Shown here one piece after another: positions 2,837 through 15,172 of a stretch of 64,000 nt of DNA. Each line of letters begins with the position of its first letter. The stretch's first letter is position 1. Source of the stretch: Herbiconiux moechotypicola (GTDB lineage: Bacteria > Actinomycetota > Actinomycetes > Actinomycetales > Microbacteriaceae); NCBI RefSeq assembly GCF_024979255.1, contig NZ_JANLCN010000001.1, forward strand, positions 1 through 64,000, written 5' to 3'. The translations under genes and the position numbers were made by a program. The notes below the pieces were generated by a model. It searched no databases. It had not been told where the DNA came from and was given only the letters and a program-made list of their open reading frames with translations.

Positions 2837-2862
2837 GTCGCGTGCATCGGTGCATACGCGAC
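2837..2862 (-). promoter_or_regulatory. Leader hairpin upstream of the Ig-like repeat gene
   Basis: Arms GTCGCGT (2837-2843) and ACGCGAC (2856-2862) are perfectly complementary, with a partial inner extension (GCA with TGC). On the minus strand this sits about 18 nt upstream of the GTG at 2819, so it could be an operator or an mRNA leader hairpin next to the ribosome binding site. Function is inference. Confidence 0.3.
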
Positions 2863-2990
2863 CTCCAGAATCTAGCAGTGCCGAGATGCTGTCGTTGCCT
2901 TCCTCGACACGAGCGCATGATCATGACCCTGCGATGGTGCCGTACCGACCGGTAGAGCTGAGCGATGGAGACCGCTGCTACCCTGACCAC

Positions 2991-3314
2991 ATGCTCGCCG
3001 ACCCCTCCGTCTACGAGGAACTCGCCGCCTTCGTGGACGAGCGCGACTGGGCCCAGTTCCACACCCCCGAGAACCTCGCCAAGAGCATCTCCATCGAAGC
3101 CGCCGAACTCCTCGAACCCTTCCAGTGGACTCCGGATGCGGCCGACTCCGACATCCGAGACGAGCTCGCCGACGTGCTCACCTACGCCTACCTCCTCGCC
3201 GCCCGCCTCGGCACAGACCCCGACACCCTCATCCGCACCAAGCTCGCCAGGACCCGCGAGAAGTACCCCGTCGACAAGTCCCGCGGCACCTCCGCGAAGT
3301 ATGACCAGCTCTGA
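2991..3314 (+). CDS. MazG-like nucleotide pyrophosphohydrolase
   Basis: A 107-aa protein of the small all-alpha NTP pyrophosphatase (MazG-like, RS21-C6-type) superfamily, expected to hydrolyse (d)NTPs to monophosphates. The Mg-binding ExxE...ExxD signature is visible: E36-A-A-E39 in SISIEAAELLEPFQW and E58-L-A-D61 in RDELADVLTYAYLLAARL. ATG 2991 is chosen because the conserved fold begins right after it and upstream codons look non-coding. The 3' end (KYDQL, stop) forms the first copy of a 35-bp direct repeat. Its ancestral downstream neighbour appears to have been the helicase now at 4470, whose duplicated start sequence overlaps this stop codon. Small MazG-like enzymes often sit beside nucleases or helicases in defence-like loci. 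Confidence 0.88.
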   Translation: MLADPSVYEELAAFVDERDWAQFHTPENLAKSISIEAAELLEPFQWTPDAADSDIRDELADVLTYAYLLAARLGTDPDTLIRTKLARTREKYPVDKSRGTSAKYDQL

Positions 3315-3323
3315 GATCGTCCA
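3289..3323 (+). repeat. 35-bp direct repeat, left copy
   Basis: Left copy of a direct repeat that matches 4365-4399 at 31 of 35 positions. It covers the last codons of the MazG-like gene and an ATG ACC AGC TCT GAG ATC GTC reading MTSSEIV, the same N-terminus found at 4377. The two copies bracket the gene at 3398-4300, giving an insertion unit of 1,076 bp. Confidence 0.9.
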
Positions 3324-3397
3324 CGAGCAGCCAAGGTCTCGACTTGCACTAACCTGTGACGATCAGCATCGTCGGCTGAACATCTACTGGGGGGCAG

Positions 3398-4300
3398 ATG
3401 CGTACATATACGCGATTGAAGTGCAGGCGTCTCCGCGAGCCGCAATCTGCGGCTGACGTTCCGAAGGAAGCGGGCGTTAGCTCAGAAGAGTCTATGGCTG
3501 TGGTGCACGAACGCTTGTCAAGTACGTCTTGGATCCCCGAGCATCGACTCCACGAGGGTGACTACGTCAAACTTCTGACGCTGGCAAAGTCGGATCGTGT
3601 GCCACTGCGGAACGGCGAGCTAGAAGACCGCTTGAAGGCGGTTCGGGGAGCTGCCATCAGCGATCCGAGAGTCGAACTCCTCGCGGCGAACACCCTCGAC
3701 CTGCTCGTTCAGATCAAGCACGGCATTCAACTCGATGGATTGATCGCGAATAACATTCTCGCGCTGGCTGATCCTCATTCAGGATGTTGGGGTCTCGTCA
3801 CTGTCGATCGGGGCGCGGTCGACATTCGCGTCCGATCGCAAGAGGTTACGGCGCTTCGCGAGGGAACCGTGAATCTGCTCTCGGTCTTGAACGTTGAGGA
3901 CCGTCTGAGCGAGCGTGCCTTTCTTTCAAGAGGCCAGGACGTGCTCGAAGTCGACGGGAAGTCGATTCAGTCGAATCGAGGTGGCGAGGAGGAAGCCAAA
4001 GGCACGGTTCACGTTCTCGGGCGGTTGGGGTTTTACTTCTACGCCGCGAGACGGCCCGGCCCGATCGCGTTACTCATCATCAGCGCGGCTCTTCTCGCGA
4101 TCTCGCTAGCCATGCTCGTTGTCGGCTTGATCAATACGAGCCTTGCAATGAGCCAGGTGTACGTATGGATTCACAACACAATCGATCGAATCTTCACCGG
4201 TGCCCTCGGAGCCGCCCTCGTTACTATTGTGACCACTGCACAATCTTTGCTGCGCTATCGACGACTCAGCGGAACGCGAGTCGTCATCGACTGGGTGTAA
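3398..4300 (+). CDS. Orphan protein with two C-terminal membrane segments
   Basis: A 300-aa protein I do not recognise. ATG 3398 has a GGGGGG tract three bases upstream. The first ~215 residues are soluble and mixed in character, with ELLAANTLDLLVQIKHG and CWGLVTVDRGAVDIRV segments. They are followed by a strong hydrophobic helix (GPIALLIISAALLAISLAML) and a second one (GALGAALVTIVTTAQSLL), with a short basic tail ending VVIDWV. Codon use is visibly less C/G-ending than in the MazG-like and helicase genes on either side. The gene lies wholly between two 35-bp direct repeats, which points to acquisition as a cassette. A membrane-linked effector or sensor is possible but is inference only. Confidence 0.75.
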   Translation: MRTYTRLKCRRLREPQSAADVPKEAGVSSEESMAVVHERLSSTSWIPEHRLHEGDYVKLLTLAKSDRVPLRNGELEDRLKAVRGAAISDPRVELLAANTLDLLVQIKHGIQLDGLIANNILALADPHSGCWGLVTVDRGAVDIRVRSQEVTALREGTVNLLSVLNVEDRLSERAFLSRGQDVLEVDGKSIQSNRGGEEEAKGTVHVLGRLGFYFYAARRPGPIALLIISAALLAISLAMLVVGLINTSLAMSQVYVWIHNTIDRIFTGALGAALVTIVTTAQSLLRYRRLSGTRVVIDWV

Positions 4301-4364
4301 GAAGACCCCATGATGCCGCGCACGTATTTTGAGCGCCGACCGCGACGAGAGCGGTCGTTCGACG

Positions 4365-4399
4365 CCTCAACGAAGTGTGACCAGCTCTGAAATCGTCCA
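4365..4399 (+). repeat. 35-bp direct repeat, right copy
   Basis: Right copy of the repeat at 3289-3323, with four differences. GTG ACC AGC TCT GAA ATC GTC CAT at 4377 reads MTSSEIVH and is in frame with the downstream helicase, so this copy carries that gene's ancestral start. Confidence 0.9.
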
Positions 4400-4469
4400 T
4401 CTCCCGTTCGACCGGGCGGAGGTCTCCGTCTAGGCCCGAAGCGGCGACAAGCGCATCACCAATTGGTCT
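4377..4469 (+). pseudogene. Ancestral 5' end of the helicase gene, cut by an amber codon
   Basis: From GTG 4377 the frame reads MTSSEIVHLPFDRAEVSV, then TAG (4431-4433), then ARSGDKRITNW and straight into VVYILDDD of the helicase. The frame is unbroken except for that stop, which looks like a TGG-to-TAG change (V-W-A to V-stop-A). The first 31 codons are therefore either lost, with restart at GTG 4470, or the stop is read through. Confidence 0.7.
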
Positions 4470-6161
4470 GTGGTCTACATCCTCGACGACGACACGGGCC
4501 GCGGCTCGAAGGCATCAGCCCGCCGCAAGATCTACGTAGGCGAATCCCTCAACGTAGCCGCCCGCATGCGCCAGCACCTCGCGAGCATCGAGCGCAGCCA
4601 CCTCACCAACCTCCGCGTCATCCTCGACGAGACCTTCAACAAGTCCGTCTGCCTCGACCTCGAGTCGTTCCTCATCGAGATGCTCAGCGGCGACGGCGCC
4701 TTCGAGGTGCTCAACCGCAACGACGGCATCGTCGATGCCGACTACTACAACCGCGCCTTATACCAAGACACCTTCGACGCCATCTTCGACCGCCTGAAGC
4801 TCGACGGCGTGTTCACTCGCACCATCCCCGAGATCATCAACAGCGACCTCTTCAAGCTGAGCCCCTTCAAATCGCTCACCGACGACCAGGCCTCCGCCGT
4901 CGAGGGCGTCGTGAAGAGCCTCTTCGACGATCTGCGCAGCAACGACCGCAGCACCACGGTCATCCAGGGCGACCCCGGCACCGGAAAGACCGTCGTCGCG
5001 ATCTACCTGCTCAAGCTACTCGCCGACATCCGTGCATCCACACCCCTCGACGCCCTCGACGACGACGGCGACTCCCTCTTCTCCGAGTTCTTCACCGACG
5101 AGCACCGGATGCTCCTCCGCGACCTCCGCATCGGCTTCGTCGTCCCGCAACAGTCGCTCCGAACCTCAGTGCAGAAGGTCTTCCGTAAGACCCCGGGCCT
5201 CAACCCGTCGATGGTGCTGACAGCATTCGAGGTGGGGGAGTCTGAGCTCGACTTCGACCTGCTCATCGTCGACGAGACCCACCGCCTCAACCAGCGGTCG
5301 AACCAGCCGTCGGCGGCGCAGAACATCAAGTTCCGCGACATCACCGCGAAGCTCTTCGGAACCGACGACGTCACGAAGACGCAGCTGGACTGGATCAAAG
5401 CCAAGAGCACCCACCAGATCTTCCTTCTAGACGCGGCCCAGAGCGTTCGCCCGCACGACCTCCCGACCGAACTTCTCAACCAGCTCGTCGCCGAGACGAA
5501 GTCTGCCGCCCATCACCATCCGCTCCTCTCCCAACTGCGCGTACGTGCCGGCGCCGACTACGTCGGTCACATCCGCCGAATGCTGGGTGCCGAACCCACC
5601 TCGGATGGGCGGCCAGCCGCATCCGTCGTCCCCGATTTCGGCGAGTACGACTTTCGGATGTTCGATGACGTCACCGAGATGCGCACCGAGATCGAGCGCC
5701 GAGACCGCGAAGTCGGCCTCTCCCGCCTCGTCGCCGGCTACGCCTGGGAGTGGACGACGAAGGCTAAGAAGCCGGGCTACGACATCGAGATCGGTGAGTT
5801 CCGGATGCGCTGGAACAGCACCCAGACTGACTGGATCGCATCGCCGAGTTCGCTCGACGAGGTGGGTTCGATCCACACGGTGCAGGGCTACGACCTCAAC
5901 TACGCCGGCGTCATCATCGGCCCTGACCTTCGCTTCGACATCGACACCGGCCGCATCATCGTCGACCGCGCCTCCTACTTCGACAAGAAGGGCAAGGAGG
6001 CGAACAAGGCGCTCGGCCGCAAGTACTCCGACGACGACCTTCTCTGGTACATCCAGAACATCTATGCGGTGCTGCTTACGCGCGGCATCCGCGGCACCTA
6101 TATCTATGTCTGCGACCCAGTGCTGCGCGAGCATCTGCGTCGGTGTGTGCCTGCGGCCTAA
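4470..6161 (+). CDS. GIY-YIG nuclease-like/DUF2075-type superfamily 1 helicase
   Basis: 563 aa from GTG 4470. The N-terminus carries a GIY-YIG-like motif (VVYILDD ... KIYVGES, residues ~1-27). An ATPase core follows: Walker A GDPGTGKT near residue 167, Walker B-like LLIVDETHR near 264-270, and a motif VI-like VQGYDLNYAGVIIGPD near the C-terminus followed by YAVLLTRGIRGTYIYVCD. This layout fits DUF2075-type P-loop helicase/nuclease proteins, which process DNA or RNA and are frequent in defence contexts. An in-frame amber at 4431 separates it from a more likely ancestral start at 4377, so expression may be reduced. The neighbouring MazG-like gene appears to be its original operon partner. Confidence 0.85.
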   Translation: MVYILDDDTGRGSKASARRKIYVGESLNVAARMRQHLASIERSHLTNLRVILDETFNKSVCLDLESFLIEMLSGDGAFEVLNRNDGIVDADYYNRALYQDTFDAIFDRLKLDGVFTRTIPEIINSDLFKLSPFKSLTDDQASAVEGVVKSLFDDLRSNDRSTTVIQGDPGTGKTVVAIYLLKLLADIRASTPLDALDDDGDSLFSEFFTDEHRMLLRDLRIGFVVPQQSLRTSVQKVFRKTPGLNPSMVLTAFEVGESELDFDLLIVDETHRLNQRSNQPSAAQNIKFRDITAKLFGTDDVTKTQLDWIKAKSTHQIFLLDAAQSVRPHDLPTELLNQLVAETKSAAHHHPLLSQLRVRAGADYVGHIRRMLGAEPTSDGRPAASVVPDFGEYDFRMFDDVTEMRTEIERRDREVGLSRLVAGYAWEWTTKAKKPGYDIEIGEFRMRWNSTQTDWIASPSSLDEVGSIHTVQGYDLNYAGVIIGPDLRFDIDTGRIIVDRASYFDKKGKEANKALGRKYSDDDLLWYIQNIYAVLLTRGIRGTYIYVCDPVLREHLRRCVPAA

Positions 6162-6172
6162 CCTCGCCGCAC

Positions 6173-6322
6173 CTAATCGGCGTCGTCGACGTACCTCTGA
6201 AGCAGTTCCTTGACCACGTCGGTCAAGGTCCGACCCTGTCGCGCAGCCTTGTCCTGAGCAGCCGCATACAAGTCTGGTGGAATCCGAAACGACTTGTGTG
6301 GCGTCTTGGGCTGGTTGGGCAT
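6173..6322 (-). CDS. Small ribbon-helix-helix-like protein
   Basis: 49 aa from ATG 6322 (an upstream in-frame ATG at 6364 would add 14 residues). The sequence KSFRIPPDLYAAAQDKAARQGRTLTDVVKELLQRYV has the strand-helix-helix pattern of RHH DNA-binding proteins and antitoxins. It is convergent with the helicase, 11 bp from its stop, and divergent from the gene at 6386. No toxin gene is coupled to it. A role as repressor of the short divergent region is likely but not shown. Confidence 0.65.
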   Translation of the reverse strand: MPNQPKTPHKSFRIPPDLYAAAQDKAARQGRTLTDVVKELLQRYVDDAD

Positions 6323-6385
6323 TGACTCATCGTGCCAGATCCACGCCTCTTGCTGGGTGTACATCCACCTTCTATCATGGGTGGT

Positions 6386-6763
6386 ATGACACCTTCAGCT
6401 CTATTTAGTTCTGTGGTCGTACCGAAATACCTCGCCGACGCCTTCGAGGATCGCGCGAATTGGGACGGCCTCTGCGCCGAAGAAGCGGTGATTCGCTTGC
6501 TCGCAGATTGGGTGAACGACCCCGAACCTAAGACCGACCGGGTGGATCTACCCAAAGTGCTCTACGAGGTTGAGCAGGGGCTCGCAAGCGATGGATGCGC
6601 GAACTTTATTCGTGCTCGGTACGGAACTACCAAGCTTCGGCGATGCCGGAATTGTGGCATCCGAGTCGCAAAGTCGCAACGGATCCTGCCGTGGAAGGCG
6701 TGCTCGGAGGATTGCGCCGACGAACTATGGATTCGCGCCAATTGTGTCGGCGATCCCGAATGA
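6386..6763 (+). CDS. RHH-like protein with C-terminal Cys cluster
   Basis: 125 aa from ATG 6386 (ATG 6377 is an alternative). The N-terminus SSVVVPKYLADAFEDRA...CAEEAVIRLLADWV resembles a ribbon-helix-helix unit. The C-terminal half has CRNCGIRV and CSEDCADEL, a CxxC-x18-CxxxC arrangement that could bind zinc. I do not recognise a family. It diverges from the 49-aa RHH protein with about 63 bp between starts, and is followed by the NUDIX gene 44 bp downstream. A DNA- or RNA-binding regulator is the simplest reading. Confidence 0.6.
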   Translation: MTPSALFSSVVVPKYLADAFEDRANWDGLCAEEAVIRLLADWVNDPEPKTDRVDLPKVLYEVEQGLASDGCANFIRARYGTTKLRRCRNCGIRVAKSQRILPWKACSEDCADELWIRANCVGDPE

Positions 6764-6807
6764 TCGTGCGAATGGTGCTTGCGTATCAACTAGGGGACTC
6801 TTAGACC

Positions 6808-7257
6808 ATGACCAAACTGCAAGTCGTCGCTGCGGTGTTCATTCGTGACGGTAACGTCCTCGGTTGTCGGAGAGCGCCAGGCCGGGTAGCCGCTGGTCAA
6901 TGGGAATTTCCCGGCGGCAAGGTGGAGCCAGGCGAGGATCCGCGATTCGCACTTCAGCGCGAGGTCGCTGAGGAGCTTGGAATTGATGTGACCGTTGGTG
7001 ATCTGCTCGATAGAACGCCCACCGCCGTCGGAGAACTCACCATCGATCTGGCTTGCTACGGGATCACTGAATACTCACTCGAACCGATCGCGAGCAGCGA
7101 CCATGATGCCCTCTCCTGGTTTGCGCCCGAGGATGTTTTCGCGGTGAGTTGGGCGAAGCCAGACTTACCCATGGTGAGAAAGATCGCGGCCTGGCGAATG
7201 TGGCGGTCTCAGAATTCGGCAGTCAGCTTTGAGAACGTAGATCCGTCACGTGCGTAG
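6808..7257 (+). CDS. NUDIX hydrolase (MutT-like)
   Basis: 149 aa with a complete Nudix box: GGKVEPGEDPRFALQREVAEELGI matches Gx5Ex7REUxEExGU. The N-terminal VVAAVFIRDGNVLGCRRAPG and QWEFPGG resemble 8-oxo-dGTP diphosphatases (MutT/CTP pyrophosphohydrolase group), so it probably cleans oxidised or modified nucleotides from the pool. The last 49 bp overlap, in convergent orientation, the 3' end of the SRA-nuclease gene. With the MazG-like gene it makes two nucleotide-pool enzymes in one small island. Confidence 0.9.
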   Translation: MTKLQVVAAVFIRDGNVLGCRRAPGRVAAGQWEFPGGKVEPGEDPRFALQREVAEELGIDVTVGDLLDRTPTAVGELTIDLACYGITEYSLEPIASSDHDALSWFAPEDVFAVSWAKPDLPMVRKIAAWRMWRSQNSAVSFENVDPSRA

Positions 7258-8114
7258 ACCGCGATACCCAGACCGTCGCAGAGGCTGAGTAGGTCCTCAT
7301 CCGGCGAGCCGGGGAGCAGGATCGCGGGGCGCGCCGTCAGCCCGAGGCGGTTCGCGTTGTGGGTGTAATCCAATACCTGACCAATGGCTGCGCGAACGCA
7401 CTTGCGGGCTGCCGACTTCTTAGCTTCAAACAACTCCGACGTGGTGCTGTCGAAGAGGTCTGGTTCGACGAAGCTCGTCCCAACTGGAATTCTCTTCCGC
7501 TGCAGGTCGTGCCCCATTGCCCTTCGCCACGATCCGAAGTCGGACTGAAGCTCGAACTCGATCCGCGACGCAATCCGTCCTGGTTGGGATATTGGGCTGA
7601 GTAGATAGTCGTCCGACCCCGGCGCGCTCCAATCGTGTGACTGGATCTGGAGAATGCGCTCGCGGCCAAGGGGCGGCACGAGTTTCAGGTCGGCGTCGAG
7701 CGGAGCGAGACTGAAAATAATCCCCTGCCGGATGTCGCCCATCACATCAGGTATATCTCGCCACTCGAATGGAGGGTCGTCGAGCGTGAATGCGCCGACA
7801 TAGGTTGCGTGCGTGTCTTTGGTGCGGAATAGGCGGATTGTCTTCCCGTCTCGTGGCGAATCCAGGAGGGCAAGATTTCCTCGCGTGAGCGTCTGTGGCC
7901 CGATCCGACCCTCGCCGGTATAGGCGTAAATTCCGTCTTCGCGAGCACCCTCATGTAGGTCGTAGCCGTACTTGACGCCTTTGGCTGGGTCAGTGAAGAC
8001 CAAGATGTTGCTTGATTGCGCCGGCGTTGAGATCCCCTGTTGCTGTTGACCACCGTAAAGCGCATGCACTGCTCGGCGTGTCATCATCTCGCCGATCTGG
8101 ATCGTCCACGTCAT
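7209..8114 (-). CDS. ScoMcrA-like SRA domain protein with PD-(D/E)XK nuclease motif
   Basis: 301 aa from ATG 8114, preceded by GGGGG and a 5-nt spacer. The N-terminal region (ALYGGQQQQGISTPAQS, VKYGYDLHEGAREDGIYAYTGEG, LTRGNLALLDS, RLFRTKDTHATYVGAFTL) matches the modified-base-reading SRA-like domain of ScoMcrA-type proteins. The C-terminal part has EPDLFDSTTSELFEAKKSAARK, with D219 or D222 and E230-A-K232 as the PD-(D/E)XK signature. It replaces the HNH nuclease found in ScoMcrA itself. I infer a type IV restriction enzyme cutting modified, for example methylated or phosphorothioated, DNA. No modification gene is adjacent, as expected for type IV. Confidence 0.8.
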   Translation of the reverse strand: MTWTIQIGEMMTRRAVHALYGGQQQQGISTPAQSSNILVFTDPAKGVKYGYDLHEGAREDGIYAYTGEGRIGPQTLTRGNLALLDSPRDGKTIRLFRTKDTHATYVGAFTLDDPPFEWRDIPDVMGDIRQGIIFSLAPLDADLKLVPPLGRERILQIQSHDWSAPGSDDYLLSPISQPGRIASRIEFELQSDFGSWRRAMGHDLQRKRIPVGTSFVEPDLFDSTTSELFEAKKSAARKCVRAAIGQVLDYTHNANRLGLTARPAILLPGSPDEDLLSLCDGLGIAVYARDGSTFSKLTAEF

Positions 8115-8269: not shown

Positions 8270-9952
8270 TCAGCAGCGGCGCATTTGCTCCACCCCTGTC
8301 CCGAGGCTATTCGGGCCGCCCAAGAGGATGGCGTTCGGTGTGCCGCTTGTCTGCATTCGCGCCAAGATCCTGCCAGGCACGCACTCCGATGGCGTGATGA
8401 AGAGAACTGTCCTGGTCACCCCGGCCAGAGCCGCGCCTGACAACGCATCGGGGAAATTCGTGCCCAGCGCTAGAAACACGTTCTGGTCCTCTCCCCGGTC
8501 TACAAAATAGTCGCCCAATTCGGCCGATACGTCGTACCGGGTGGCGCCCGAGATGCGGTTGAGACCCATGTCGAGTGACCGGATGTCGTCATCCAACGCG
8601 GGCAAAATCGAGTTTGGTCCTCCGATCACCCACGCGGATTGCGAATCGAGCTGTTGCAAGAGTGCTCTAGTCGGCGCATCCAGCCTGGTGTTCGCTCCGT
8701 TGACCAAGACCACGACTCCACCATTTGAGGCGGCGGCTGAACCTGCTGAGAGCGCGTCCGCGAAGCCGCGCCCATCGGCGAAGAACACTCTGATGCGGGA
8801 CTCGCCAGTCGTGGGGTCCGGCGTGATGGTGGGTGCGGCCAGACGTGCCAGCTTTCGAGACACCTCGTACCGATCGGCTCCACCGATTCGTTCGATCTCT
8901 GGCGCGAACTGCGCGAGCCGGGAATAGGTCTCGCTGCTGACCGAGTTTGGCCCCCCGACTACGTAGATCTTCTGCGGTTTCAAACGGACCAACTCAGACG
9001 CGATGGTCGCAGGGACACTACCCGGTGTGACCAGCAGTACCGGACCGCCCAAGTGGGCGGCCACGGGTCCAGCACTCAGCGCATCCGGATAGTTGGTGCC
9101 ATCCGCAATGAAGACTGCTGGCACGCCCGCCTTGAAGTGACTTGCGGAGATGTTGGCAGAAGCCTCGAAGCGGTCGGCGCCGGAGATCCGCTGCACGGTT
9201 CGCGCGGCCCACGGAAATAGAGTGGTGCTGTAACCGGTCAGCTGGTCACCAGGTGACGGCTGGATGAGCGTGGCTGTCGATCGTGTGGGCTGATTCGGCC
9301 AGTATTGCGGGCTGTACATCTGCCCGCCTCCGATGTCATTCGTGTAGTCGGAGAACAGGAGGGCTTGAGGAGCGTCCGGCACGCCGATCATGAAGTAGCT
9401 GCCGCCCGTAACCGTTGCCCAAGTTCCTTCTTCCCAGGTTCCGTCCGGATTTCGGATGAACGTGACGACCTGCTGCACATTGTTGTTGAAGTAGGCGGTG
9501 GTCTCTACGACGCCCTTGATCGAGGCTCCGGCAATCATCCCGACGTTCGCAACCATGTCGGCTCCGTCTATCGTGAGCACCTTGGCCTCGGAACGGAACG
9601 GAGTGTCGCCCCACCACGTCGGGGCTAGCCCGACGTCGTCTACTGAGTACGGCGAGTGGTATTCGGAGAAGTGGATTCGATAGTCCCCATCTTTGAGACC
9701 TTCGAGTCGGTAGTCACCCTTCCAGTCGGCAGTGCCGAACTGGGCGTAGTAGCCATGCTCGTCGTACACGGTGATCTGGGCTTGGACGCCGAAACTGTTC
9801 TGGCCCGCGGGACTCAGGTTGGATACGTGCCCCGAGATGGCATGCGTCTCGGTCTCGGCGGCTGCTGCGGATGCTGTCGAGATCGCGATGGAACCGGCAA
9901 CGAGGCCTGCCATCGCTATAGTTGCGGTGATCGTCGATCGGATCCGTGCCAC
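8270..9952 (-). CDS. Secreted protein with cell wall-binding repeat 2 domains
   Basis: 560 aa from GTG 9952, with GGGGG and a 5-nt spacer upstream. A signal peptide (MAGLVAGSIAISTASAAAA) leads into a carboxypeptidase-regulatory-like beta region (ADWKGDYRLEGLKDGDYRIHF). A second beta domain follows, and then three ~90-aa cell wall-binding repeat 2 units (PF04122 type), each starting RISGADRFEAS, RIGGADRYEVS or RISGATRYDVS and containing FIADGTNYPDALSAGPVAA and VVGGPNSV. The protein is expected on the cell wall; its partner or substrate is unknown. It diverges from the secreted protein at 10203, with an operator-like repeat between them. Confidence 0.88.
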   Translation of the reverse strand: MARIRSTITATIAMAGLVAGSIAISTASAAAAETETHAISGHVSNLSPAGQNSFGVQAQITVYDEHGYYAQFGTADWKGDYRLEGLKDGDYRIHFSEYHSPYSVDDVGLAPTWWGDTPFRSEAKVLTIDGADMVANVGMIAGASIKGVVETTAYFNNNVQQVVTFIRNPDGTWEEGTWATVTGGSYFMIGVPDAPQALLFSDYTNDIGGGQMYSPQYWPNQPTRSTATLIQPSPGDQLTGYSTTLFPWAARTVQRISGADRFEASANISASHFKAGVPAVFIADGTNYPDALSAGPVAAHLGGPVLLVTPGSVPATIASELVRLKPQKIYVVGGPNSVSSETYSRLAQFAPEIERIGGADRYEVSRKLARLAAPTITPDPTTGESRIRVFFADGRGFADALSAGSAAASNGGVVVLVNGANTRLDAPTRALLQQLDSQSAWVIGGPNSILPALDDDIRSLDMGLNRISGATRYDVSAELGDYFVDRGEDQNVFLALGTNFPDALSGAALAGVTRTVLFITPSECVPGRILARMQTSGTPNAILLGGPNSLGTGVEQMRRC

Positions 9953-10112
9953 TTGTGCCCCCTGGAGTCTGTGCGATCAGCGTATTCGACGCTTGACTGG
10001 CGAGGTGTTGGCTGGCATTCCGACGCCGGAACCGGCGTGGTCCATCGCAGGCACCTTGTCCTTCACCCGGATCTGCATCGCTGCGCCCTTCAGTCGCCAC
10101 GCGAGTGAGCGA

Positions 10113-10129
10113 TGAGCAGCAACTACTCA
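10113..10129. promoter_or_regulatory. Operator-like near-palindrome between divergent secreted-protein genes
   Basis: TGAGCAGCAACTACTCA matches the palindrome at 8145-8161 at 14 of 17 positions and keeps the ACTACTCA half intact. It sits in the divergent gap between the genes starting at 9952 and 10203. No gene was seen in the rest of this 250-bp gap. Confidence 0.45.
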
Positions 10130-10202
10130 TGGTTCCCCACGTTCCTCAGCGAGCAAGCTGTCGGCATGCCCGCCTAAGAGCGGGTGGAAGAAGGGAATGA
10201 TC

Positions 10203-10730
10203 ATGCCGAGCTTGCTGCGACGGATGACGATGACTGCGGCGTTTGTATTGGTACTGAGTGGTGGTGTTGCTGCGAGCCACTGGGCTCCGCCGGCTGCGAA
10301 TGCAAGTCTCTCGGCGTTCAACTGCGTGATTTCCGTCGATCATCCACACGCGTCTCACCACGTCGGCGGCACCATGAACGTGGAGGGCCGTGTGGAATGC
10401 GAGCAACGAATGGAAAGCATCTACATTCGGCTGTACCTCCACAAGCAGGGCGGCGGAGAGTGGGCGGGCACTCCCGGCTCGAGGAACAACGCGAGCTACC
10501 TGAAGGCGAATGCAGCTGCGCCGTGTTCGGCCGGGCCGGGGCAGTACTGGGGCGAGGCTCGAGTCACGGCCGTTCCGCCCGCGGGATGGTCGCCACGTTC
10601 GGCGACGGGGTGGGCTAACGGCTTCGTGTTGCCTTTAGCGTGCGGAAACTCGCTCACGGGCGAAGATGACGGCGACGTTCTCGGGACTACCGTTGTGCGC
10701 AGCACGATTCGATTTGAACCGAGCGCCTAG
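10203..10730 (+). CDS. Secreted protein of unknown function
   Basis: 175 aa from ATG 10203, chosen because AAGGGA lies 6-8 bases upstream; ATG 10197 is too close to it. A signal peptide (LLRRMTMTAAFVLVLSGGVAAS...ANA) precedes a small beta-rich domain containing four cysteines (FNCVIS, VECEQR, APCSAG, LACGNS), suggesting two disulfides outside the cell. There is no enzyme motif and I do not recognise the family. The stop lies 9 bp before the next gene, so the two probably form an operon. Confidence 0.7.
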   Translation: MPSLLRRMTMTAAFVLVLSGGVAASHWAPPAANASLSAFNCVISVDHPHASHHVGGTMNVEGRVECEQRMESIYIRLYLHKQGGGEWAGTPGSRNNASYLKANAAAPCSAGPGQYWGEARVTAVPPAGWSPRSATGWANGFVLPLACGNSLTGEDDGDVLGTTVVRSTIRFEPSA

Positions 10731-10739
10731 GAGTAGGTC

Positions 10740-11054
10740 GTGATTGCAGAGCCTGTTGATCCTCGAGACGTCCGTCAGGATGTGGATCACCCGGTGTACC
10801 GGGTGTACTTCTGGCATCAGCCCGACCCAGCGTGGGGGGCGCACTCGTGGGAGTGGCGCATCCGGGACGCCCGGGATGTCTTCGAGGTCATCGGGTGGGC
10901 GGAGGCAGAGCGGGGGGAGCGTACTTACCAGTTGTTCGTGGAGGAACTCATGGAGGAGGGGAACGCGGCCGAGGGCGTGCGGCTTGTGCGGTTGGCGGGG
11001 GACGATCCCACGCGTGCGGGAGAGGGCGTCAACATCACCTTCACGAGAGAGTGA
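10740..11054 (+). CDS. Small acidic protein of unknown function
   Basis: 104 aa from GTG 10740, with GGAG seven bases upstream. It is a soluble protein with many Trp, Glu and Arg residues (VYRVYFWHQPDPAWGAHSWEWRIRDARDVFEVIGWAEAE). No signal peptide or motif is visible. It follows the secreted protein gene by 9 bp. The combination HSWEWRIRDA...VIGWA is suggestive of a small immunity-like or accessory protein, but that is speculation. Confidence 0.6.
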   Translation: MIAEPVDPRDVRQDVDHPVYRVYFWHQPDPAWGAHSWEWRIRDARDVFEVIGWAEAERGERTYQLFVEELMEEGNAAEGVRLVRLAGDDPTRAGEGVNITFTRE

Positions 11055-11381
11055 GCGGTGGTCATCACACCAAGCGTTCCCTGGGAGCTGAGCGACTTTC
11101 GGGTAAACGGCCGCCGGTCGAACCTATCTGAGGCAGGCCGGCGGCATCCGGTTCGATTCTGAATTCGTTCTGGTTTCGCTCGAACTGGAGCCGCTCCGTG
11201 GATAGATCGGGCGAGGCATGTCGCCGGTCTCGATCTTCGTCGAGCTGCGCGGCCGATGATGTGGAGTACTCGACTGGCAGGCGGTCGAAGATCTGATTCA
11301 TCGCGCTGGTGCGCATGGAGGTGTGCTCATTGACGGCGTCGGAGCATATTGCTGTGAAGGTCTTTTACCCGGCTTGAGAGC
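11055..11381. other. Intergenic stretch without a convincing gene
   Basis: About 327 bp between convergent genes. It holds an inverted repeat GCCGCCGG (11110-11117)/CCGGCGGC (11138-11145) that could terminate the 10740 transcript; there is no T-tract. A minus-strand 83-codon frame here lacks family features and a ribosome binding site, so it is not called. Confidence 0.4.
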
Positions 11382-14300
11382 TCAGCACGGGCGGCCGACG
11401 GGGTCGCGAGTGCCGGTCTCAAGGTCGACATCCGCGACGTAGTAGCCGTCGCTGACGCGATACCAGAGGCTGTCCCAGCCGCCATTTCCGATGTAGGGAC
11501 TGAAATAGCCCCTGACCGACTGGCCATAGACGTGGCAGACGAGCGTGAGTGGGGTCCCGGCCCCGTACCAGCCCGCCTGCGTCGACGTGAGGTTGGGGGC
11601 GCTCATCCTTTGCGTCTGCACGGCCGGGGTCCCGGTCGGTAAAGCGGGAACGGAGGCGGTCGGAGCGCTCGTCTGTGCTTGGGCGATGAATCCAGCGCGC
11701 GATCCGTTCACGGTCACCGTGAGGCGCTTGCCCACCTCACTGAGAGTGACGGTGTACGACGGAGACGTCGCGCCGCCGATCGGCGCACCGTCTGCCGACC
11801 ACTGATACGCGAGCGTGTCGGGAGTGGGAGACCAAACACCCGCATCGGCGCTGAGTGTCGATCCGAACGATGCATCGCCGTTGACGATTGGAATCGGTGC
11901 TGAGGTGAACTGTTGCGGGCTGATCGTCTTTGGACCGCTCGTTCGGGCGGTGCTCGCGTATCCTGCCCGTGAAGCGGTTACTGTCACGCTGATGCTCTGA
12001 GCGGCATCCGCCTCGGTCAGCTTGTAGGTCGACGCAGTCGCGCCAGCGATGACCTCTGCACCCCGCACCCACTGATAGGTGAGCTTGGAGGGCGTCGGAG
12101 ACCACGTGCCCGGCTTCGCGGTGAGCGTCGATCCGACGATTGCGCTGCCGCTGACAGTCGGCGTCGGCGCAGTGGTGAAGGTGAGCGTCGCCACTTTCTT
12201 CGCCGTGCTCGTCTTAGACGTGGTCGCATACCCCGACCGCTTGACCGTGACCGTGACCGTGACGGTGGTTCCGGCGTCCGGCTCGACCAAGGTGTACTTG
12301 GAGGTGGTGGCGGACGGGATCGCCGTGCCGTTCCTCTTCCACTGGTAGCTGATCGTGGAGGGTGACGGTGACCACGTTCCTGGAGCGGCTGTGAGGGTGG
12401 AGCCCACCGTTCCCTGGCCCGAGATCGTCGGAGTCGGAGTCACTTTGAAGAAGGCGGGTACTGCTGTCACCCCACTGGTCTTCGACGTGGTGATGCGCCC
12501 GACGGATGAGGCGGTGACCACGACCGTGAGCGACGTGCCCGCGTCCGCGGGAGCTAACGTGTAGCGCGAGTTGACGGCGCCGGAGATGGATACGCCGTTC
12601 CGCTTCCATTGGTACTTCAGCGTCGAGGGTGTCGGCGACCACGTGCCTAGTTGTGCGGACACAGTCTCGCCGACCACGACCGATCCGTTGATCGTGGGGA
12701 GCGGCGCTTTCGTGAATGCGATGGAGGCGATGGTCGTGGCGGCGCTCGTCTTCGTGGAACTCGTGTAGCCCGACTTGGTCGCTTTCACGGAGACCGTCAG
12801 CTTGGCGCCCGCGTCTGCCTCGACCAGCTTGTAGGTGGACGAGGTCGCCCCCGAGATCGCCGTCCCGTTCCGAGCCCATCTGTATGAGTACGTGTCGGCC
12901 GCCGGCGACCAGGTTCCTCGCTTCACGGTGAGCGTCGATCCGACCGTCGCCGACCCGCTGATGGTCGGAGTGGGCGCCTGGGAGAAGAGGGATTGGATCG
13001 CCTTCGTTGCGCTCGTCTTCGACGTGCTGGTGCGCCCGATCGCGGTTGCGGTCGTCGTGACGGTGATCGACTTTCCTGCATCGGCCGCGACGAGCTTGTA
13101 CGTGGCCGCGGTGGCTCCAGGGATGGATGCGCCCGCGCGCTTCCATTGATAGGTGATCTTCGCCGCGGGCGACCAGGAGCCCGGCGCCGCGGTGAGCGTG
13201 GATCCCACAGCCGGGGTTCCACTGATCGTGGGCACCGGCGCCACAGCGAACGCGATGGTGGCGACAGCTTTCGCCGCACTCGTCTTGCTGGCGGTGGTGT
13301 AGCCGGACTTCTTGGCGGTGGTCGTTACCGTGATCGAGGTGCCCGCATCCGCCGTCACCAGCTTGTAGGTCGCCGCGGTCGCGCCCGAGATCGGCGTGCC
13401 GTTTCTCTTCCACTGGTAGGTGATGGTGGTCGGCGACGGCGTCCACGTTCCCGCGTTCGCCTTCACTGTTGAACCCACCGTGCCGGTGCCGCTGATGGTG
13501 GGCGTGGGCGCGGTCGTGAACGACAGCACCGTCACAGCCGACGTCTGCGCAGTGGTCGCGGTGGCGGAGGCGTAGCCGTCGCGATTCACAGTGACCACCG
13601 CCGAGAGGCGAGCTTTCGCATCTGCGGTGACGACCGAGTAGCTGCTGCCGATCGCTCCGGGGATCGGCGTGCCGTTACGGAACCACTGGTAGGTGTACGT
13701 GAGGGTGTCGCGGGCCCACGATCCCTTGCTTACCTTCAGTACCGATCCGATTCGCGGCGTGCCGCTGATCGTGGGTGCTGAGACGAGATTCACCGGTGCT
13801 GCGGAGACGCCGAACTGGGGATGGATTCCTGTGCCGAAGTTGATCGCGTACACCTTATAGACGTCAGAGCTGTCGCTCTGGTCGACCACGACATCGAAGC
13901 CGTGATTCGGGCCGCGCCCGAATGCCGCATCGACGTCGCTTCGGGGGATGTCTGCGATCGCCTGCGTCAGCAACGCGTCATTGCGATAGATGTGGATGGC
14001 GATCGGGTCGGTTGTGTCCTGATCGAGGGTCCACCCGCGGAGACGCACTTTACCGTCGACACCGGCCACGGAGTCGAGATTGCCGATGGGGTTGGCCGAC
14101 GGAGGCGAGGGCTTGGTGCCGAGCTCTGGATTGACACCCCCGCCGGCGTTGATCGCGTACACGGTGATGTTTCCGGCGCCGGCGCCGGAGTCGAGGTAGA
14201 CGGAGTATCCGTGGAACTCGCCGCGGTGATGGACGGCGTCGACGTCGGGCCGGGATTGGTCAGCCCGCGCGGCGGCGCGCATCACACCGTTCACGTAGAC

Positions 14301-15047
14301 GTGCACGTCTATCGGATCGTTGGTGTCGGGGTCGATCGCCCACCCGCGTACGAAAACCCCGCCGGATGCCGAGTCGACGGCATCGAAGGCACCGAACGGT
14401 GCGGCGCTGCCGACGGGGCCGCAGCCGTCGGCAGTAAAGGAGGTGCGTCCCCACACACCGTTGCTTATCGGGCCCGATGGCGGAAGATCGGGAGCGCCGC
14501 AGATCCTGAGGCCGTGTGCCGAATCGAATGGTAGTGGGGATCCGTGGTTGTAGCAGCCCGGCGCAGACCAGTACTCGAAGTGAAGATGAGCGACGCCGTT
14601 GTTGTTGTAGCTGCCTGCTGAGCCGACGCTGCCGATCGCCTGCCCCGCCGAGATCGATCCGCTAGTGACCGATGCGTTGATGTGGGTGAGCGTGTAGCTT
14701 CTGCCTCCACTCACATTGACGCAGAGGTTCCCGTACGACGCCTGCCAATACGCCACCACGCCGTCTTGCGGCGCTACCACTGTGCGACCGGCTGTTGACG
14801 TGCTGCTTGCACCGGTCGTGAGGTCGAGCCCGAATTGTGAGGTTCCTGTATGGGTTCCTGACGAGTAGCCCTGATAGATGTAGACCGGGCCGCCCGACTC
14901 GAACGGTGATCGTATGTTGCCCTCGGCAGCGGATGCGGACTGCGGAAAGCTCTGCACGCCGAGGAAGACGAGGAGTGCCATGACGACGGTGATCGCGACA
15001 GCGCGCGCGGATGTGTGAGCTCCGGACGAATACGTTGAACCAACCAC
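11382..15047 (-). CDS. Secreted M23 peptidase with eight Ig-like repeats
   Basis: About 1,221 aa from GTG 15047 (GGGGG plus 5-nt spacer upstream; the in-frame ATG 15065 is inside the leader). After a signal peptide (TVVMALLVFLGVQSFPQSASA) comes an M23/LytM peptidase domain: GTHTGTSQFGLDLTTG and, ~95 residues later, the HLHFEY zinc motif. Two ~85-aa modules (GVFVRGWAIDPDTNDPI..., KVRLRGWTLDQDTTDPI...) follow. Next are eight ~90-aa Ig-like repeats (PTISGTxxVGSTLxxxxGTW...YQWKRNGT), and a C-terminal SH3-like module (GWYGAGTPLTLVCHVYG...WDSLWYRVSDGYYVADV). I infer a peptidoglycan-targeting or surface enzyme with a long repeat stalk. Confidence 0.88.
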   Translation of the reverse strand: MVGSTYSSGAHTSARAVAITVVMALLVFLGVQSFPQSASAAEGNIRSPFESGGPVYIYQGYSSGTHTGTSQFGLDLTTGASSTSTAGRTVVAPQDGVVAYWQASYGNLCVNVSGGRSYTLTHINASVTSGSISAGQAIGSVGSAGSYNNNGVAHLHFEYWSAPGCYNHGSPLPFDSAHGLRICGAPDLPPSGPISNGVWGRTSFTADGCGPVGSAAPFGAFDAVDSASGGVFVRGWAIDPDTNDPIDVHVYVNGVMRAAARADQSRPDVDAVHHRGEFHGYSVYLDSGAGAGNITVYAINAGGGVNPELGTKPSPPSANPIGNLDSVAGVDGKVRLRGWTLDQDTTDPIAIHIYRNDALLTQAIADIPRSDVDAAFGRGPNHGFDVVVDQSDSSDVYKVYAINFGTGIHPQFGVSAAPVNLVSAPTISGTPRIGSVLKVSKGSWARDTLTYTYQWFRNGTPIPGAIGSSYSVVTADAKARLSAVVTVNRDGYASATATTAQTSAVTVLSFTTAPTPTISGTGTVGSTVKANAGTWTPSPTTITYQWKRNGTPISGATAATYKLVTADAGTSITVTTTAKKSGYTTASKTSAAKAVATIAFAVAPVPTISGTPAVGSTLTAAPGSWSPAAKITYQWKRAGASIPGATAATYKLVAADAGKSITVTTTATAIGRTSTSKTSATKAIQSLFSQAPTPTISGSATVGSTLTVKRGTWSPAADTYSYRWARNGTAISGATSSTYKLVEADAGAKLTVSVKATKSGYTSSTKTSAATTIASIAFTKAPLPTINGSVVVGETVSAQLGTWSPTPSTLKYQWKRNGVSISGAVNSRYTLAPADAGTSLTVVVTASSVGRITTSKTSGVTAVPAFFKVTPTPTISGQGTVGSTLTAAPGTWSPSPSTISYQWKRNGTAIPSATTSKYTLVEPDAGTTVTVTVTVKRSGYATTSKTSTAKKVATLTFTTAPTPTVSGSAIVGSTLTAKPGTWSPTPSKLTYQWVRGAEVIAGATASTYKLTEADAAQSISVTVTASRAGYASTARTSGPKTISPQQFTSAPIPIVNGDASFGSTLSADAGVWSPTPDTLAYQWSADGAPIGGATSPSYTVTLSEVGKRLTVTVNGSRAGFIAQAQTSAPTASVPALPTGTPAVQTQRMSAPNLTSTQAGWYGAGTPLTLVCHVYGQSVRGYFSPYIGNGGWDSLWYRVSDGYYVADVDLETGTRDPVGRPC

Positions 15048-15172
15048 GGTAGCCCCCACGACCATGCAAAATACGACGTTGTGATGCTGCGGTCAGGATC
15101 CCCCGAAGCAGGCCCAGGCTAGCAGCGGGCACGCCGCGCAAATACACCCCACAACGGGTGCCGCGGCCGCGG

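Follow-up and report, generated by a model that had tools for sequence, protein, structure and literature searches.

How did a gene of no known family come to stand between two genes that overlap in other genomes? The question arises in Herbiconiux moechotypicola, in a stretch of 64,000 nucleotides (the window, with positions counted from its first base) from an assembly, G000, of 4.28 Mb in 51 contigs, where a MazG-like gene and a helicase gene are separated by about 1 kb of DNA bracketed by short direct repeats. The answer we consider likely is that an acquired one-gene cassette of about 1.04 kb inserted into an operon of a MazG-like gene and a GIY-YIG helicase gene, with duplication of about 35 bp of the target, and that several insertions with long target duplication, this one among them, struck this operon in Herbiconiux and a second genus.

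Junction repeats and empty sites

The MazG-like gene (2991..3314, plus strand; 107 aa; Pfam PF12643, 2e-19) is intact, and homologs of it are present in most of the loci fetched. Its last codons lie within the left junction copy (3289..3323, plus strand), which holds the end of the gene (stop at 3312-3314) together with an ATG at 3301, the orphaned start of the former helicase. The frame opened by this ATG (3301..3456, plus strand; 51 codons, reading MTSSEIV) runs to a stop at 3454-3456 that lies inside the start of the inserted cargo gene, which uses another frame. The right junction copy (4365..4399, plus strand) carries the former helicase start, a GTG at 4377. The copies agree at 31 of 35 positions, differ at the other four, and are spaced 1,076 bp apart; a 29-base pattern common to both has two matches in the 64-kb window at three or fewer mismatches, and none in 100 shuffles. 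The preliminary description of this DNA had reported the repeats as brackets of a cassette, with the same positions, match and left-copy contents, and all of this was borne out. With so short a duplication, and with 11% divergence between its copies, the limits cannot be placed exactly, and the cassette, taken here as 3324..4364 (plus strand; about 1.04 kb), has ends that are not defined to the base. A search of 2850-4500 gave no site resembling a promoter or terminator, and the segment 4301-4400, with a hairpin at 4337-4357, folds no better than its shuffles (z -0.63).

In all six of the other Herbiconiux genomes that keep the junction (G002, G004, G010, G011, G012 and G013), the flanks of the cassette align with an overlap of 29-34 bp and the cargo is absent, the left flank reaching 3320 or 3322 and the right flank starting at 4365-4370. 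The cassette has no match at this junction in any of the six, and the lone further match to it, 28 bp elsewhere in G013, is at chance level (E about 1e-3). The MazG stop overlaps the long helicase frame in 53 of the 55 loci fetched with the helicase, by exactly 14 bp in 49 and by 32 or 38 bp in four; of the other two, one is a disrupted Herbiconiux locus and one lacks MazG. Empty sites at six of six Herbiconiux junctions and overlapping genes in 53 of 55 loci give strong support to the view that a cassette of roughly 1 kb, bearing a rare 300-aa gene, inserted here and that the junction was duplicated in the event. Just such an insertion at an overlapping junction had been proposed earlier, with the suggestion that relatives be searched for an intact overlap free of cargo, which is what all six junctions display. 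The opposite reading, which takes the cargo as ancestral and the repeat as a coding motif common to both genes, has a negligible probability: the empty sites and the overlapping loci count against it, as does the confinement of the cargo to one of 16 Herbiconiux genomes, and no points supporting it were found. Neither relatives that always carry the cargo without a second repeat copy nor a repeat serving as a coding motif of both genes came to light.

The cargo gene and the helicase downstream

The cargo gene (3398..4300, plus strand) encodes 300 amino acids and belongs to no known family; its product has no match in Pfam, NCBIfam, PADLOC, PHROGs or PDB sequences, and no relatives were found in plasmids, phages or viral contigs. 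Its GC3 is 0.65, as against 0.92 for the MazG-like gene and 0.88 for the helicase. A protein search of the 16 Herbiconiux genomes found the cargo in its own genome only. It occurs in at least three of 398 family genomes, its own included, the others being a homolog with 34% identity and a marginal match with an internal stop; in the class, among the matches listed, it occurs in one of 394 genomes, again its own. Both of these larger searches scored the best five candidates per genome first, so misses are possible. The homolog in G401 (locus L072) is distant from that genome's helicase, is spanned by no direct repeat, and has a flank with one small match among 11 other genomes of the same genus. 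Hydropathy marks a strong hydrophobic segment toward the C-terminus of the cargo protein, at residues 223-241, and a second long helix appears in a low-confidence structure model (mean pLDDT 41, unusable). Solely from the company it keeps, that is, by guilt by association, the window cargo may be a candidate uncharacterized defense gene.

On the other side of the cassette, the preliminary description had placed the helicase's own MTSSEIV start in the right repeat copy. The start found there is instead the GTG at 4377, and the decayed frame that it opens (4377..4433, plus strand) is closed at codon 19 by an in-frame TAG at 4431-4433. Four intact Herbiconiux helicases used for comparison have ATG where the window has GTG, and a sense codon at the position of the stop. 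The body of the gene (4470..6161, plus strand; 563 aa) is open from a GTG at 4470 and matches SLFN-g3 (PF09848, 3.3e-66) along with GIY-YIG (PF01541), the latter below the Pfam family cut-off; its best named relatives are those of Herbiconiux daphne and Herbiconiux sp. VKM Ac-1786. This GTG is the next in-frame start, and it retains most of the GIY-YIG region while dropping the conserved stretch just upstream of it. The remainder of the helicase is probably read from GTG 4470, or else the gene would be a young pseudogene.

Amino acid changes private to the window helicase number 17, the stop included, and four of them fall within the first 31 codons; the hypergeometric probability of at least four there is 0.009, for a count made after the pattern had been seen. 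The helicase body differs from the four relatives with dN of 0.086-0.099 and dS of 0.37-0.50, for a dN/dS of 0.20-0.23, and the same ratio between relatives' helicases is 0.17-0.20 (four pairs). Because the window helicase is changed at 31 of the 478 sites invariant in the other four, exceeding the 8-24 changes of each of those, some loosening of constraint in the body is possible. The start region thus looks to be free of constraint, and the body would have retained most of its constraint or be too young to have decayed.

These features bear on two further claims made earlier. Preservation of both reading frames had been offered as a mark of orderly integration; the MazG-like gene is indeed whole, but the helicase has a GTG start and a stop at codon 19, and with the helicase start region broken the argument does not hold. 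Removal of 1,076 bp had been expected to restore a compact operon. Since the codon-19 stop lies outside the repeat, deleting just those 1,076 bp would leave the ancestral helicase frame unrestored.

Outside the insertion, the neighboring stretch 6173..8114 encodes a small protein with a weak RHH match (minus strand), a 143-aa ORF (plus), a NUDIX protein (plus) and a protein with a weak SRA match (minus), and the DNA from the helicase to 8114 aligns with G011. The last of these genes (7209-8114, minus strand) adjoins the NUDIX gene and encodes a protein of 301 aa that matches SAD/SRA weakly and may act in restriction of modified DNA. Elsewhere in the window, at 11382-15065 (minus strand), a 1227-aa protein has M23 peptidase and Ig-like matches, and its gene contains strong internal DNA repeats at 12004-13775.

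Repeats and cargo in the operons of relatives

The helicase is present in eight of the 16 Herbiconiux genomes at E <= 1e-30, and seven of these eight have operon-derived direct repeats, 35-214 bp in length and at different places; the remaining one, G011, has the helicase and no such repeat. We call a case clean if the upstream copy is joined to the upstream target and the downstream copy to the downstream target, with the cargo between. The clean cases are the window (35 bp, 89%), G002 (196 bp, 97%), G010 (73 bp, 85%) and G013 (208 bp, 94%), while the repeats of G001 (214 bp, 94%), G004 (44 bp, 91%) and G012 (107 bp, 82%) accompany fragments in other arrangements. In G013 and G010 there are also cassettes that replace operon DNA instead of duplicating it. 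The points of insertion in relatives are spread through MazG and helicase. The expectation that different cargo would be found at the same junction therefore held for the operon and not for the exact base, three Herbiconiux genomes having cargo between clean duplications of 73, 196 and 208 bp elsewhere. A scan of 13 operon loci, partly chosen for helicase pieces, found 16 repeat pairs that touch the operon and two outside it. For background, 400 kb of G011 and G328 (20 stretches of 20 kb) gave five comparable pairs, of which three belong to a single repeated family in a single stretch, in a count that excludes two further pairs inside single reading frames.

Many of the genes in or beside the operon are defense-like, and others are not. 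Between the repeats lie a DndB protein in G010, an Ltp-family lipoprotein in G002, and in G013 a 211-aa protein that matches an unknown phage family; G013 also has a 423-aa protein without matches. The replaced parts contain an ORF with helicase-associated domains in G010 and a DUF6602 protein with weak nuclease similarity in G013. G001 has a TIR-like effector between helicase pieces as well as NaeI, a cytosine methylase and Vsr; G012 has an AAA/subtilase pair and NaeI; and G004 has a RhuM/Fic protein. The NaeI-type genes of G001 (locus L075, 5352-6302, minus strand) and G012 (locus L079, 12573-13523, plus strand) stand next to fragments of the same helicase gene that differ between the two genomes. 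In L079, the AAA ATPase and subtilase (S8) pair, at 8813-12172, has the full helicase on one side and a helicase fragment on the other.

A second genus of the family, g8, has the helicase listed in six genomes. Five of these were chosen for extra helicase pieces (in G328, a split helicase), and all five carry operon repeats, the longest pair in each measuring 130-446 bp; the G328 repeat (130 bp, 96%) splits the helicase cleanly. The sixth, G022, has an intact helicase and no repeat. The genes found in or beside the operon are a ThsA-like SIR2 protein and a ThiC-like ORF in G355, McrBC-like genes in G380, HD-CE and TPR proteins in G166, ABC-transporter genes in G401, and two proteins without matches in G328. 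The ABC-transporter region of G401 was dropped as cargo, since it also occurs downstream of a helicase piece in G355 and appears to be an ordinary neighbor. Two further arrangements were seen in this genus. In G401 (locus L111, reverse-complement coordinates 9538-9900), two separate helicase pieces are directly joined downstream of an intact copy. In G166 (locus L109), an 838-bp direct repeat (1133-1966 and 9318-10150; 86%) lies outside the helicase operon, and a helicase fragment immediately precedes the second copy. In other genera, one of 52 loci, in a sample that favors intact helicases, gave a weak repeat case (L059, 39 bp, 82%).

Routes of insertion and the wider pattern

The absence of an integrase or transposase had been remarked upon from the start, and Pfam scans of seven window ORFs at 2991-8114 found no such family; nor did any recombinase family appear in the ORFs scanned in the window and in relatives' loci. 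IstB_IS21, the sole mobile-element name among the scanned ORFs, was rejected as a below-cut-off match of an McrB-type ATPase. The preliminary description had nonetheless likened the event to site-specific integration, which would require an integrase supplied in trans to insert cassettes at the junction core and duplicate that core. Such a process would account for a duplicated element that spans the functional junction and for a MazG-like gene left whole. The insertion points scattered through MazG and helicase in relatives share no common core, however, the repeats vary from 44-214 bp in other Herbiconiux to as much as 446 bp in g8, and the scanned ORFs, the seven of the window among them, offer no linked recombinase. 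Because insertion positions and repeat lengths vary in this way, we regard site-specific integration as very improbable. Integron cassettes and att-site integrative elements also carry small single-gene cargo between direct repeats, but here the ORFs scanned lack an integrase, and the repeat changes in length and position from genome to genome.

We propose instead that foreign DNA was captured at a break, through either of two routes: one-sided homologous recombination, with the other end joined illegitimately, or the filling in of widely staggered ends followed by end joining. The MazG-like gene would have been left whole, the helicase would have been deprived of its coupled start, and the first 31 helicase codons would then have decayed. 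The one-sided route (homology-facilitated illegitimate recombination), in which donor DNA that brings along a piece of this operon is anchored by it in the resident operon and the free end joins illegitimately to yield duplications or deletions, seems to us quite possible, at a little below an even chance. It would explain how duplications and deletions both came to be in one locus, as in G013 and G010. In G001 and G012, NaeI adjoins helicase pieces that come from different parts of the gene, a hint that cargo moves together with operon fragments, which serve as anchors. A similar model has been proposed, in the relevant passages of PMC5361080, for Vibrio T6SS immunity arrays. Against this route, searches of Herbiconiux, family and class genomes turned up no donor in which this cargo adjoins operon DNA.

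End joining at staggered breaks, in which fill-in of long overhangs and ligation of foreign DNA between the filled ends leave duplications of variable length, is a possibility that we place clearly short of even. The lengths do vary, and Ku is found in 15 of 16 Herbiconiux genomes, G000 included, although a gene so general in Herbiconiux proves nothing about these events. Overhangs of at least 200 bp would be unusual, and the deletion-type events require a second step. A ComEC-type protein is likewise found in 15 of the 16, G000 included; since Ku and the ComEC-type protein are each so widespread, neither route can be dismissed for want of genes. The repeat copies themselves bear on the choice. 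In the four clean cases they differ at 33 positions (counted by eye), of which 26 are private to a single copy, the outcome expected of copies that started out identical, a point in favor of end joining and against one-sided recombination. At the remaining seven (two in G002, five in G013), each of the two states is found in some other genome, a pattern that an imported copy could also produce and that speaks for the one-sided route. The truncated MazG copy of G002 departs from the relatives' commonest state at all six of its differences, and three of the four differences in the window fall on the downstream copy. The two copies in the window share a final base that the six other Herbiconiux junctions lack, which favors duplication of the genome's own DNA over one-sided recombination, though this is a single site at the edge of the left copy, where cassette DNA could match by chance. 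On the whole, the copy differences fit a duplication of own DNA followed by separate decay, and an imported copy would be compatible with them also.

The window event fits the class called insertion with long target duplication, which came from comparison of Helicobacter pylori genomes and frequently involves restriction-modification genes (Nobusato et al., Gene 2000, as described in passages of PMC1643837, PMC3031569 and PMC4978471). In both settings, so far as these passages describe the class, a block of genes lies between long, variable direct repeats derived from the target. Close relatives of the window have the empty site (six of six Herbiconiux junctions; 53 of 55 loci), and the repeats are target-derived, exceed the usual transposon duplications, and vary (35 bp here, 44-214 bp in other Herbiconiux, 130-446 bp in g8). 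The Helicobacter cases in those accounts often carry restriction-modification genes, and such genes or similar ones occur in several of the other operon cassettes, whereas the window cargo is one gene of no known family, in an actinobacterium. Unlike the Helicobacter insertions as there described, those in Herbiconiux hit the same operon repeatedly within a genus. One H. pylori restriction-modification cluster, according to a passage of PMC4978471, may have inserted into another with long target duplication; that case is called site-specific, a description that the spread of positions in Herbiconiux does not support.

Two other systems invite comparison. For the arrays of orphan immunity genes in T6SS clusters of Vibrio, homology-facilitated illegitimate recombination was proposed (PMC5361080, in the passages concerned), and there, as in the operon here, a new module lies beside leftovers of the old locus and repeated events produce mosaics; for the window cassette, in contrast to that model, no donor came to light in the genomes searched. 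McrBC units have been found inserted in restriction-modification gene complexes, likewise a defense unit inside another defense-type locus (PMC2614495), and flanking duplications such as those of the window are not described in the relevant passages of that paper. We therefore assign the window event to insertion with long target duplication, what is new being that a single operon is hit again and again within a genus and that the cargo is of unknown family. Use of this operon as an insertion site was unreported in the open-licence papers searched, a search that lay mostly outside subscription papers.

A broader reading would make the operon a recurrent acceptor of defense cassettes, its leftover fragments serving as portable homology anchors for recombinase-free uptake in two genera, and the 300-aa protein a new single-gene defense effector with a soluble part and membrane helices; taken whole, we consider this unlikely. 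What the locus offers is a series of insertions in one operon of one genus, with no recombinase found, in which decay has advanced to different degrees and empty sites are available to compare against. Insertion with long target duplication thereby becomes testable outside Helicobacter, and reading what lies between duplicated operon pieces becomes a route to unknown defense genes.
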